Positions 33,242-58,140 of a stretch of DNA of 64,000 bases are shown here, piece after piece. A program made the translations under genes and the position numbers. Under the pieces are notes generated by a model, which saw only the letters and a list, made by a program, of their open reading frames with translations, did not search any database and was not told where the DNA came from. Numbering within the stretch: position 1 is the first letter of the stretch; each line of letters opens with the position of its first letter. This DNA is from Halobacterium wangiae (GTDB lineage: Archaea > Halobacteriota > Halobacteria > Halobacteriales > Halobacteriaceae): NCBI RefSeq assembly GCF_021249345.1, contig NZ_CP089588.1, positions 1,302,001-1,366,000 on the forward strand, in the 5' to 3' direction.

Positions 33242-33769
33242 GTGTACAGCGTGAACGCGCCGGTTCCCCCGGCGGTGAACGAGCTCGCCGACGACCTCCG
33301 TCCGGCGCTCTCGGCGTTCGCCCGCGTCCGCGAGTGGCACGAGCGCACCCTCCTCCTGAAGCGCGTCCCCGCCGACGACCGGAAGGAACTCCGGACCGCC
33401 TGGCAGACCGCGAAGGACGCGCTCCGGGGCGCGCCCGCCGTCGAAGCCCGCGTCTCCGAGGTCGACACGTTCGACGACCCGCCGAACGGGTCGAGTCCCG
33501 TCGTCTACCTCGCCGTCGAGAGCCCCGGCATCCACGAGCTCCACGCCCGCCTCTGCGAGGTGTTCGAACCCGTCCCGATACTGGAGGGCGGCGACGACTA
33601 CGACCCTCACGTCACGCTCGCCCGCGACGCCGACGGCTTCCGGGGCCGCCGCGCCGTCGAGAACGTCCGCGGACGGGAGGTCGGCCCGGTCACGTGGACC
33701 ATCGAGGAACTCGAACTGTACGACGCCCGCCACGGCGAGCGCGTGGATTCGATTTCGTTGCCTGCGTAG
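33242..33769 (+). CDS. 2H phosphoesterase (2'-5' RNA ligase superfamily)
   Basis: A 175-residue protein of the 2H fold. The second catalytic motif is canonical (PHVTLAR, H123/T125). The first is atypical: the expected H-x-T is read as H33-E-R-T, with one extra residue, in EWHERTLLLKR. It has the expected domain between (VVYLAVESPGIHELHARL). Members open or make 2',3'-cyclic phosphate or 2'-5' bonds in RNA. A second, canonical family member (ThpR) is at 56099. The start is GTG 33242. Followed directly by structured element A. Confidence 0.78.
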   Translation: MYSVNAPVPPAVNELADDLRPALSAFARVREWHERTLLLKRVPADDRKELRTAWQTAKDALRGAPAVEARVSEVDTFDDPPNGSSPVVYLAVESPGIHELHARLCEVFEPVPILEGGDDYDPHVTLARDADGFRGRRAVENVRGREVGPVTWTIEELELYDARHGERVDSISLPA

Positions 33770-33811
33770 GTGGCTGTGTGCTGTTCTTGCGGTCGGAGAC
33801 AATGGTCATAT

Positions 33812-34031
33812 CTCGAAAGCCCCGGCCCGCTCGATGCTCCGGGGCTCGCTGTGCTCCTCGCTCCCGGTGGTCGCTGCGGTGCTTCCTTCGCCCGGGAGCA
33901 GTCGACCGGCCCGCCCCTTTCAGTCCTGCCCGGTACCGGCTACCTAACTGGCCAACGGGAGGACTGAATGGGGCGGCCAGGTACGGGAAGCACAGCGAGC
34001 CGCGCGACCGTACCTGGCCGGGGCTTTCGAG
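33812..34031. repeat. Structured element A (four-way-junction inverted repeat)
   Basis: A 220-nt element in a 304-nt gap between the 2H gene and the helicase gene. P1: 16-bp perfect ends, 33812-33827 with 34016-34031 (CGAAAGCCCCGGCC core). P2: 33824-33840 with 33895-33911 (small bulges). P3: 33911-33927 with 33960-33976, 17 bp with one mismatch (CCGCCCCTTTCAGTCCT). P4: 33975-33986 with 34008-34019, 12 bp perfect (GGCCAGGTACGG). A further perfect 13-bp pairing joins the tips of P2 and P4: 33843-33855 (GGCTCGCTGTGCT) with 33989-34001. The same plan is found in element B. Could be an RNA, a DNA cruciform, or a mobile repeat. No coding frame of note. The rest of the gap holds nothing else I can see. 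Confidence 0.8.
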
Positions 34032-34073
34032 GTGGTGTTCTGACGACCAACTAACGAACCTGATACAGACGAT

Positions 34074-36260
34074 TCACGGACTGGGCGGGTCGCCGTCGTA
34101 GGCGTCCAGGTCGCCGTAGAAGTTGAGCATCGAGAACCGCAGTTTCTCGGGGTCGATGTCGACGAGTTCCTGGCGGTCCTCGGGTGGGAACGTCGGGTTG
34201 ACGCTGTACTTGCGCATCTCCGTCCGGCTGCCGGACGTGTACCGGCGGTCGACCAGCATCCGGACGCCGAAGTCCTCGGGCGACCGGATGACGCGCCCGA
34301 TGGCCTGCCGGGTCTTGCGGACGGTCGGGATCTCGACGGCGTACCGCCAGCCGGGGTCCTCGGTGCGCCGCGCGCCCTCGCGGTCGCCGAACGCGCGGTC
34401 GTAGGCGTCCTGGACGGCCTCCGCGCGGGCGTCGAGGTGTGGGTAGGGGACGCCGACGACGGCGACCGTGCGGGCGTCATCGGCGTCGAAGCTCACGCCC
34501 TCCGCGAGCGTCCCCCACAGCGAGGTGAACAGCGCGCCGTTCCGGTCGGCGACGAACGACTGTCTGAGGTCCTCGGCGGCGACGCCGGGTTCGTCGAGGT
34601 ATCTGGCAGCCTCCACGTCGGACAACAGGTCGTGGTAGCGCTCTGCTTCCGCGTAACTCGGGAAGAAGAACAGGCAGTTCCCGGGCGTGAACCGCACCGC
34701 GTCCCGGAGGACGTCGGCGACCTCTCGCTGGACGCCGCGGTCGTCGCGCTTCGAGGCGAACAGTGGCTCGGTGTCGACGGCGAACGTGCGGCGACGCTCC
34801 GCGGGGAACTGGAGGCCGAACGCCATCTCCACGGGGTCCTCGAGGCCGAGGACGTCACCGACGACATCGAACGGCCGGAGCGTCGCGCTCATCAGCACGC
34901 TCGCGTGGACCGCGTCGAAGAGGTCCGTCGTCACCTCCCGCGGGATGCAGGTGTACAGCTCCGCGCGGCCGTACACCTCCTCGGTGCCCTCGTCGCGGCG
35001 CACCGCCGCGGTCGGGTACTGGCCGAGTTCGTCGCCGTCCTCGACGTACGTCTCGACGAACTCCGCCGCCTGCAGGACGAAGCACTCCCGCCGCGTGGTG
35101 GTCTCGCCGTTCCGGTATGCCTCCTCGTACTCCTCTTTCAGGTACTCGCCGAGTGCGAGCGCGTCGTCGACGTCCTCGTGGATGCCCGGACCGGTGTACT
35201 GCTGGAGGAACGCCAGCGTCAGGTCGTCCCGCCGGTGCTCGTTGGCGACCGGGACGTCCTCCCAGTTCGGCCCGACCTCGGACTTCGCGCGGGGCGGTCC
35301 GGCGCCGCCCGGTCCGAACGACTCCTCGTACGTCTCGACGAGCGCGTCGCGGAACGCCGAGACGATGCGCTCGGCCGCGGCAGCGCGGTCCTGGTTCACC
35401 TCCTCCAGTTCCGAGAGCGCGCTGTCGAGGCTGTTCTCGGTGAGCGTCCTGGCCGCGTGGTCGCGGGCGGCGTCCTCGATGTTGTGGGCCTCGTCGAACA
35501 CCACCACGACGTCCTCGGGGTCCCGGCCCAGCCAGCGGAAGAACTGTGCGCGGATGCCGGGGTCGAGCAGGTGGTGGTAGTTGCAGACCGCGAGGTCGAC
35601 GCCCTCCATCCCGTCCTTCAACAGCTCGTAGCCGCAGAGGCCGGCCTCCTCGGCGTAGTCGTAGATGTCCTCGGGCGTCCGGACGTCGTCGTACAGCCAG
35701 CCGTAGAACTCGTCGTTGTCGCCCGCGAGGTTCTCGTAGTAGCGCTCGCAGACGTTCCCCTCGCGGAGGTCCTCGAGGTCCGCCTCCACGGACTCGAGTT
35801 CGTCGAGGACCGCCTGGCGGGCGTCGGCCGCGTCGGCGTCGCCGCCCTGGCTCTCCTCCAGGAGCGCCTGCTGGCGCTCCTCTAGCTGGCGCTTGTCGCG
35901 TTCGGTGTCGACGAGTTCGTGGGTGTTGTCCCGGAGCACCTGGCACTCCTCGTAGTCGACGTCGATGTGGCACATCGACCCCTTCCCCTTGAACACGACG
36001 GCCCGGATGGGTTCGGCGTCGTGGATCTCCCGGGCCTCCCGGACGAACTGGCGCATCTGCTGGTGGACGTTCGTCGTGATGACCACCGTCTTGTCGGTCT
36101 CGCGGGCGTGTGCGAGCGCCGGCGCGAGTGCCGCGAGCGTCTTTCCCGTCCCGCAGGCCCCCTCGAACAGCACGTCCCGGCCGGTGTCGAGGGCGTCCCG
36201 GATCTCGTCCATCGCCGCCCGCTGGTTGTCGTACGGCGAGGGCTTCGGGAAGAACTGCAT
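34074..36260 (-). CDS. Rad3/XPD-like ATP-dependent DNA helicase
   Basis: A 728-residue SF2 helicase of the Rad3/DinG group. Walker A is FEGACGTGKTLAALAP and the DEAH box VVFDEAHNIEDAARD. Between motifs I and II are Cys in GSMCHIDVDY, GNVCERYYENL and AGLCGYELL, plus ECQVL, in the arrangement of a 4Fe-4S domain. C-terminal motifs VLMSATLRPFD (III), SLWGTLAEGVSFD (V) and RQAIGRVIRSPEDFG (VI) follow. Such proteins unwind DNA 5' to 3' in repair. The start is ATG 36260 (MQFFPKPSPYDNQR); an earlier GTG/ATG would add a non-conserved tail. Confidence 0.92.
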   Translation of the reverse strand: MQFFPKPSPYDNQRAAMDEIRDALDTGRDVLFEGACGTGKTLAALAPALAHARETDKTVVITTNVHQQMRQFVREAREIHDAEPIRAVVFKGKGSMCHIDVDYEECQVLRDNTHELVDTERDKRQLEERQQALLEESQGGDADAADARQAVLDELESVEADLEDLREGNVCERYYENLAGDNDEFYGWLYDDVRTPEDIYDYAEEAGLCGYELLKDGMEGVDLAVCNYHHLLDPGIRAQFFRWLGRDPEDVVVVFDEAHNIEDAARDHAARTLTENSLDSALSELEEVNQDRAAAAERIVSAFRDALVETYEESFGPGGAGPPRAKSEVGPNWEDVPVANEHRRDDLTLAFLQQYTGPGIHEDVDDALALGEYLKEEYEEAYRNGETTTRRECFVLQAAEFVETYVEDGDELGQYPTAAVRRDEGTEEVYGRAELYTCIPREVTTDLFDAVHASVLMSATLRPFDVVGDVLGLEDPVEMAFGLQFPAERRRTFAVDTEPLFASKRDDRGVQREVADVLRDAVRFTPGNCLFFFPSYAEAERYHDLLSDVEAARYLDEPGVAAEDLRQSFVADRNGALFTSLWGTLAEGVSFDADDARTVAVVGVPYPHLDARAEAVQDAYDRAFGDREGARRTEDPGWRYAVEIPTVRKTRQAIGRVIRSPEDFGVRMLVDRRYTSGSRTEMRKYSVNPTFPPEDRQELVDIDPEKLRFSMLNFYGDLDAYDGDPPSP

Positions 36261-36372
36261 GTACTCCTCGGGTGGGTCGCTCGCGGCCACGATAGGGCCG
36301 GGTTGGTCGGCACGGCGTATAAACGTCCGCCTCGACGCACCGGGCGTCACGACCGGCCGGACGCCCGGGCGC

Positions 36373-57732: not shown

Positions 57733-57789
57733 TTCCGTTCTGGCTGGGATTCGGTGGTTTCTGCTTCTGGGTGCAGTTCTACGACGTGT

Positions 57790-58037
57790 AGAAAGCCCCG
57801 GCCGTCTCGGGTCGAGGGGCTCGCTGCGCGCGCTCCCTTCGGTCGCGTGCTTGCGTCGCCCGTCTTCCCCGAGACGGCCGCCCCTTTCATTCCCACCCAC
57901 TAACGGCTAGCCAGCTGACAACGGGCGGATTGAAAGGGGCGAGGCTGTGGACGATGGCAGGCGACGCTAGCACCGAAACGACCGGGGGGAGTGAGGAACG
58001 CAGCGAGCCTCCCGAGTCCACAGCCCCGGGGCTTTCT
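57790..58037. repeat. Structured element B (four-way-junction inverted repeat)
   Basis: A 248-nt relative of element A in the 408-nt gap before sufS. P1: 57790-57801 with 58026-58037, 12 bp perfect (AGAAAGCCCCGG). P2: 57801-57810 with 57869-57878, 10 bp perfect (GCCGTCTCGG). P3: 57880-57893 with 57927-57940 (GCCCCTTTCA core, one mismatch). P4: 57943-57952 with 58016-58025, 10 bp perfect (GGCTGTGGAC). Long-range: 57818-57828 (GGCTCGCTGCG) with 57999-58009, 11 bp perfect. P2 and P4 sequences differ from element A but pair here too. The remaining 57733-57789 and 58038-58140 hold no gene that I can see. Confidence 0.8.
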
Positions 58038-58140
58038 GGGTAGTGTAACTGCCCACAAAGCCGACTTCGCTCTATCCAACTACTCCCCATCTTCCCCGGC
58101 ACCGAAGGACAGTTGAAGCCGGACTCCCTACCTCCGAGCA

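Follow-up and report, generated by a model that had tools for sequence, protein, structure and literature searches.

The 220-base element at positions 33812-34031 of the window (the whole 64,000-nt stretch of Halobacterium wangiae DNA analysed here) lies in the gap between two convergent genes and contains several inverted repeats, which raises the question of whether it is a structured RNA in its own right, a DNA palindrome or one slot of an interspersed repeat. The original prediction, made from the letters alone, described this element (element A) as a four-way junction held together by a kissing or pseudoknot contact, and rightly kept open that it might be a cruciform or a mobile non-autonomous repeat. 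Element A consists of two copies of a single hairpin unit of ~118 nt, inverted and placed tail to tail, and the repeat most likely derives from non-autonomous mobile DNA with ongoing swapping of units, rather than from a one-off four-way-junction RNA.

Anatomy of element A and its unit

Element A is intergenic and non-coding, and its position between convergent genes, one for a member of the 2'-5' RNA ligase superfamily and one for a helicase (table 1), is as originally described. All pairings listed for it are present in the sequence. An inverted-repeat search recovered a perfect 16-nt repeat (33812-33827/34016-34031, 100%), a 26-nt repeat (33905-33930/33957-33982, 85%), a 13-nt repeat (33974-33986/34008-34020, 100%) and a 28-nt repeat (33840-33867/33977-34004, 79%) within which lies the perfect 13-bp contact 33843-33855/33989-34001; mismatches interrupt the pairing of the first arm (33824-33840/33895-33911). 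The RNA folding energy is -145.5 kcal/mol (z = -8.4 versus shuffles) and DNA folding gives z = -9.3 on both strands, with 0 shuffles as good in either case, placing the fold 8-9 standard deviations beyond shuffled sequence.

The four-way junction does not survive as the anatomy of the element. Since A consists of two inverted copies of one unit, its minimum-energy fold, as RNA and as DNA, is an imperfect long hairpin formed by unit 1 (left half) pairing with unit 2 (right half); the 13-bp contact and the pairing of the first arm are therefore alternatives to each other rather than contacts made at the same time. The supposed kissing or pseudoknot contact is a match between two unit loops that are inverted copies of each other, and single-unit copies, which have no third arm, are common. 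The 16-bp terminal repeats are a perfect inverted repeat, as claimed, but they are two unit starts and not the ends of the element; the true cassette boundary lies ~45-50 bp further out. When used as a query, element A finds matches, on both strands, at about fifteen sites of its own chromosome, and these copies are of full (two-unit) and single-unit types. Element B, at 57789-58038 of the window, is a complete unit pair.

Table 1. Features of elements A and B and of the genes flanking A, with positions in the window.
Feature	Position	Strand	Basis
Upstream convergent gene, 2'-5' RNA ligase superfamily	33242-33769	+	PF13563, E 3.5e-16
A left outer spacer, hypervariable, ~45 nt from stop codon to GAAAG	33770-33811		Absent at empty H. 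salinarum site
A left 'terminal inverted repeat', the start of unit 1 (CTCGAAAGCCCCGGCC)	33812-33827		Inverted-repeat search, other copies
A unit 1, complete ~118-nt hairpin unit (GAAAGCCCC...GCCCCTTTCAGTCC)	33813-33932	+	Model R1, 102.1 bits, E 2.6e-21
A centre, meeting point of two unit tails	33933-33954		Sequence; palindromic tail CCGGTTG/CAACCGG in other copies
A unit 2, short inverted copy, 76 nt, inner hairpin deleted	33955-34030	-	Model R1, 67.0 bits, E 1.1e-12
A right 'terminal inverted repeat', the start of unit 2	34016-34031		Inverted-repeat search, other copies
A right outer spacer, hypervariable, ~45 nt	34032-34073		Absent at empty H. salinarum site
Downstream convergent gene, DEAD_2/Helicase_C_2 helicase	34074-36290	-	PF06733, PF13307
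Element B, unit 1	57789-57899	+	Model R1, 111.8 bits
Element B, unit 2	57921-58038	-	Model R1, 115.4 bits

The ~118-nt unit consists of GAAAGCCCC, variable paired stems and GCCCCTTTCAGTCC. Its start (ACCTC-GAAAG-CCCC) and tail (GCCCC-TTTC-AGTCCCACCCG) are fixed and its inner loop (CTCGCTGYGC/GTGCTTRCKTCG) is conserved, while the two stems vary in sequence and keep their pairing. The outer helix GAAAG/CTTTC is followed in nearly every unit by an unpaired CCC/CCC stretch. Covariation was measured in an alignment of 37 units from Halobacterium and other genera, in which the ends and the internal loop are fixed, with a hand-written structure; RNAalifold independently returned nearly identical pairs. 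Paired cells amount to 92.2%, versus 38-46% with the partner slid, and double-sided changes occur at 19 of the 28 pairs. There are 193 doubly changed cells versus 65 in shuffles, although some of these counts reflect inherited types and not independent events. Additional large hairpins stand between the stems of five units (L019, L034, L036, L144 and L145), where the inner loop region seems to tolerate nested palindromes.

The composition of the stems bears on whether this compensation acts on RNA or DNA. G-U makes up 3 of 402 standard pairs (0.7%) in the main variable stem, where A-C mismatches are commoner, and 5.4% in the second stem, mostly in one column; haloarchaeal tRNAs taken from the same sequences have 25 of 349 (7.2%). 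The scarcity of G-U in the main stem favours a DNA-level hairpin or palindrome over RNA and, short of proof, is an argument against selection for an RNA fold having been the principal force.

Distribution and genomic position

A covariance model of the unit (R1) was run across haloarchaeal genomes, a kind of search that the original prediction had proposed. Homologues do keep the pairing, one of the conditions on which that prediction had staked its structural claim. It finds 35 units in this chromosome, 5-53 in each of the other Halobacterium genomes and 0 in H. salinarum DSM 3754 (G007). At least one unit is present in 166 of 194 Halobacteria genomes, covering 57 of 65 genera, and units also occur on haloarchaeal megaplasmids. 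The earlier view that A belongs to no named RNA family is upheld by the Rfam covariance models, none of which matches A at the gathering threshold and of which only chance miRNA models appear below it. No match to A was found in a phage collection, nor to one exact 18-nt tail pattern in viral contigs. Searches of the haloarchaeal PATE, IS6 and MITE literature, and for the sequence itself, gave no description of this repeat, and the family is, as far as we could find, previously unnamed.

Gene context was assigned with a codon-usage gene finder made for this analysis, which gave the expected genes of the window. Units are intergenic in divergent, tandem and convergent arrangements and in both orientations, with no preference for 3'-UTRs or 5'-UTRs. 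A 3'-UTR element oriented with the upstream gene was rejected on the mixed orientation and on the many units before start codons. In Halobacterium, the GAAAG outer end lies a median of 48 nt after the stop codon (n = 55) or 96.5 nt before the start codon (n = 100); the distances vary much more in other genera. Control intergenic lengths in this genome are broad and shorter (medians of 27 nt convergent, 61 nt tandem and 145 nt divergent) and do not suffice to explain the near-fixed spacing as a by-product of normal intergenic length.

Where slots are orthologous, conservation covers the part near the promoter, whereas the ~46 nt beside the unit are, by eye, unrelated in sequence and near-equal in length. 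We rejected this outer spacer as a guide or a virus-derived memory, its matches being confined to its own or orthologous loci and to chance stretches of 16-21 nt, and a de novo motif search within it gave nothing stronger than in control windows. The word CTAG, which is rare in this genome (0.45 per kb), is over-represented on the outer side only, 44-58 nt beyond the unit start (27 of 167 non-redundant flanks versus 3.5 expected), and could represent a target or a former terminus. Its offsets from GAAAG are mostly -59, -56, -53, -50, -47 and -44, a single phase modulo 3 (about 24 of 30) that may be partly due to orthology. At one further locus (L170, G000:C1:2244391-2244506), the TGA stop of the neighbouring gene apparently falls within the unit tail (GAGTGACCAACTGCCCG), so the element may supply a stop codon.

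Shared slots, unit exchange and mobility

At least two Halobacterium species share each of 33 intergenic slots, so that units occupy positions passed on by descent within the genus. The comparison of the homologous gap, also proposed originally, shows slot A filled in six species and empty in H. salinarum, where only ~6 nt separate the two stop codons; gaps at other slots are likewise compact there. What is extra relative to H. salinarum is the element together with ~45-55 nt on each side, and in most stop-class cases the neighbouring protein ends within a few residues of its H. salinarum orthologue. At the L195/L045/L326 slot, the upstream protein ends in RIRD or similar when the slot is filled and in RIVEE in H. 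salinarum; insertion at the stop codon apparently rewrote its last residues. At L233 (G000:C1:1700001-1720000), compared with L292 and L297, the unit of G001 and G002 seems to have been lost from G000 with a tail-like GGTCAACCACCG and a spacer-like stretch kept, possibly a precise loss of the unit.

Mean flank identity at shared slots is 87%, versus 75% for the best unit and 68% for random units. Units at different places can be 90-99% alike, and their homology is confined to the unit, ending at -5 to +2 and at about +104 to +124. At one slot, G004 and G011 have orthologous outer flanks and an orthologous centre, but the unit on the left in G004 matches the one on the right in G011 at 99% identity. 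An in-place inversion of the core was rejected because in the alignment the centre keeps its orientation and a single unit has been replaced. Replacement of a unit between intact flanks, together with homology limited to the unit, points to ectopic gene conversion via the conserved unit ends. This is the simplest account of the swapping; insertion by transposition into spacers that already existed would leave a similar picture but is a less economical explanation.

Signs of transposition come from five young copies in G010 and G011 (L325, L332, L333, L335 and L337), each a complete mobile element with GGYAGTGTTCAGATAAG inverted repeats and one unit inside. Their IS6-type ends are intact, at -50, and four of them (L325, L333, L335 and L337) have target duplications (TSDs) of 8 bp, the length that IS6 elements generate (PMC7986276). 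The GGYAGTGTTCAGATAAG repeats also bound a ~690-bp IS in G004, G010 and G011, whose protein matches DDE_Tnp_IS240. G011 holds 39 exact AGTGTTCAGATAAG sites; the IS6-type inverted repeat is highly expanded there, with unit-carrying MITEs, and is absent in most sister species. Copies in two other families (L053 and L368) have intact or near-intact IS6-type ends at -57 and -52. On the outer side of old copies, a weak IS6-end signal can be detected (48 best hits in the expected window versus 30.1 +/- 5.8 permuted, with 1 of 300 permutations as high); the inner side of old single-unit copies has no residual IS6 TIR, and A itself has neither an IS6 TIR nor a recognisable target duplication. IS6 transposition accounts for the young copies and is a possible account of A and the other old copies.

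Other partners were sought without success. The Y1/RAYT transposase (PF01797) is absent from six unit-bearing genomes (G003, G005, G006, G008, G009 and G012), and a RAYT/REP partnership was rejected on the finding that the Y1_Tnp count does not follow the unit count. A scan of 30 TnpB loci and two Y1 loci gave no real match to the unit, and IS605/TnpB ends were accordingly rejected as its source.

Comparison with known repeats and origin of the family

Several known systems share parts of this anatomy. As in REP/BIME (RAYT) families, the repeats are short intergenic palindromic hairpins, single or in inverted pairs, in many copies and with no coding capacity; the unit here differs in its ~118-nt length, two variable covarying stems, class-wide spread and lack of a Y1/RAYT partner that tracks it. 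The PATEs of Haloquadratum walsbyi have no TIR, near-terminal palindromes, a variable end of 20-50 bp and a terminal oligonucleotide (PMC3119063). The haloarchaeal unit likewise has no TIR and a near-terminal palindrome, and its hypervariable outer side, with CTAG in 27 of 167 flanks versus 3.5 expected, may correspond to the variable PATE end and its terminal oligonucleotide, but PATE palindromes resemble IS605/TnpB ends and the TnpB loci examined carry no unit. Two examples of IS6-family MITEs, of 227 and 336 bp, are noted in the literature (PMC7986276), and the young G010/G011 copies resemble them in their IS6-type TIRs and 8-bp TSDs, whereas A and nearly all old copies have no recognisable IS6 ends. 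The small mobile repeats (SMRs) of Haloquadratum are ~110 bp long, with prominent inverted repeats, no target duplication and an unknown mobiliser, and SMR-A targets PATE/IS605 palindromes (PMC3119063). Compared by description and not by sequence, SMRs and the unit are alike in size, in their inverted repeats and in having neither a target duplication nor a known mobiliser; the unit differs in occupying gene borders and not PATE/IS605 palindromes. The family thus behaves in a REP/BIME- or MITE-like way, but the tests for a defining partner came out negative for RAYT-REP, for IS605-PATE and, in the case of A, for IS6-MITE.

It is probable that element A is a slot of an ancient, class-wide, REP/BIME-like family of mobile-derived interspersed palindromic repeats in haloarchaea. 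Slots would first have arisen by transposition, with the transposase acting in trans, after which the polyploid haloarchaea would have kept units similar and well paired via ectopic gene conversion, possibly assisted by hairpin-templated repair, by selection for a DNA hairpin or cruciform, or by both. Element A would then extrude or fold as single-stranded DNA of the REP/BIME or MITE type and not as a dedicated RNA.

A host function under selection would also be compatible with the way in which units have persisted in shared slots from species to species with their structure intact. One such reading, possible though doubtful, is that the unit is a class-wide functional DNA hairpin (or RNA) selected at gene borders, with module swapping rewriting the sequence while the fold and the spacing to promoter or stop stay fixed. 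A DNA architectural or insulator element, BIME-like and either a cruciform or a protein-binding site, under purifying selection at particular slots, would explain the 33 shared slots with pairing kept, the fixed Halobacterium spacing (48 nt from the stop, 96.5 nt from the start) against broad control intergenic lengths, and the Watson-Crick-only compensation; it is rather unlikely in view of the complete absence of the family from H. salinarum, the range of 5-53 units between species, the looser spacing in other genera and the capacity of gene conversion and hairpin repair to maintain pairing without selection. Strong covariation with a conserved internal loop, class-wide conservation and retention at the same slots would suit a structured non-coding RNA acting in cis or in trans, with transcribed units and the hairpin as functional product. 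Against this, units show no orientation bias to genes and lie as often upstream of divergent promoters as after stops, the covarying main stem nearly lacks G-U, no promoter-like motif stands at a fixed place before the unit, Rfam gives no match and H. salinarum lives without the family, and we consider such an RNA quite unlikely.

Among readings based on transposition, that in which all copies are decayed IS6-family MITEs draws on the intact ends at -50 in young copies, the near-intact ends at -57 and -52 (L053 and L368) and the weak outer signal that old copies retain at the same offset (48 versus 30.1 +/- 5.8). We hold it to be rather improbable: the inner side of single-unit copies retains no TIR, the word that best marks the outer boundary is CTAG (27 versus 3.5 expected) and not an IS6 end, and IS6 elements may have captured a pre-existing unit. 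The resemblance in anatomy to Haloquadratum PATEs (PMC3119063) and the enrichment of CTAG on the outer side only would instead agree with a PATE/REP-like element that a Y1 (HUH) transposase mobilises in single-stranded form, CTAG serving as the target tetranucleotide on one side, but a Y1_Tnp count that does not track units, six unit-bearing genomes with no such gene and the absence of units from the examined TnpB loci make this distinctly improbable. A bidirectional transcription terminator would suit the position of A, between convergent genes and ~45 nt from each stop, and is very unlikely for a family in which most copies are not between convergent genes and many lie between divergent promoters.

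A hairpin module that occurs in 57 of the 65 sampled genera, and that can reach dozens of copies in a genome, has stood without an Rfam entry or a description that we could find. In combining compensatory change with a main stem almost free of G-U and with the swapping of whole units, it provides a natural case in which to test whether covariation is always a sign of RNA. The unit can also serve to trace ectopic gene conversion in polyploid archaea, and it calls for caution in RNA searches based on covariation.
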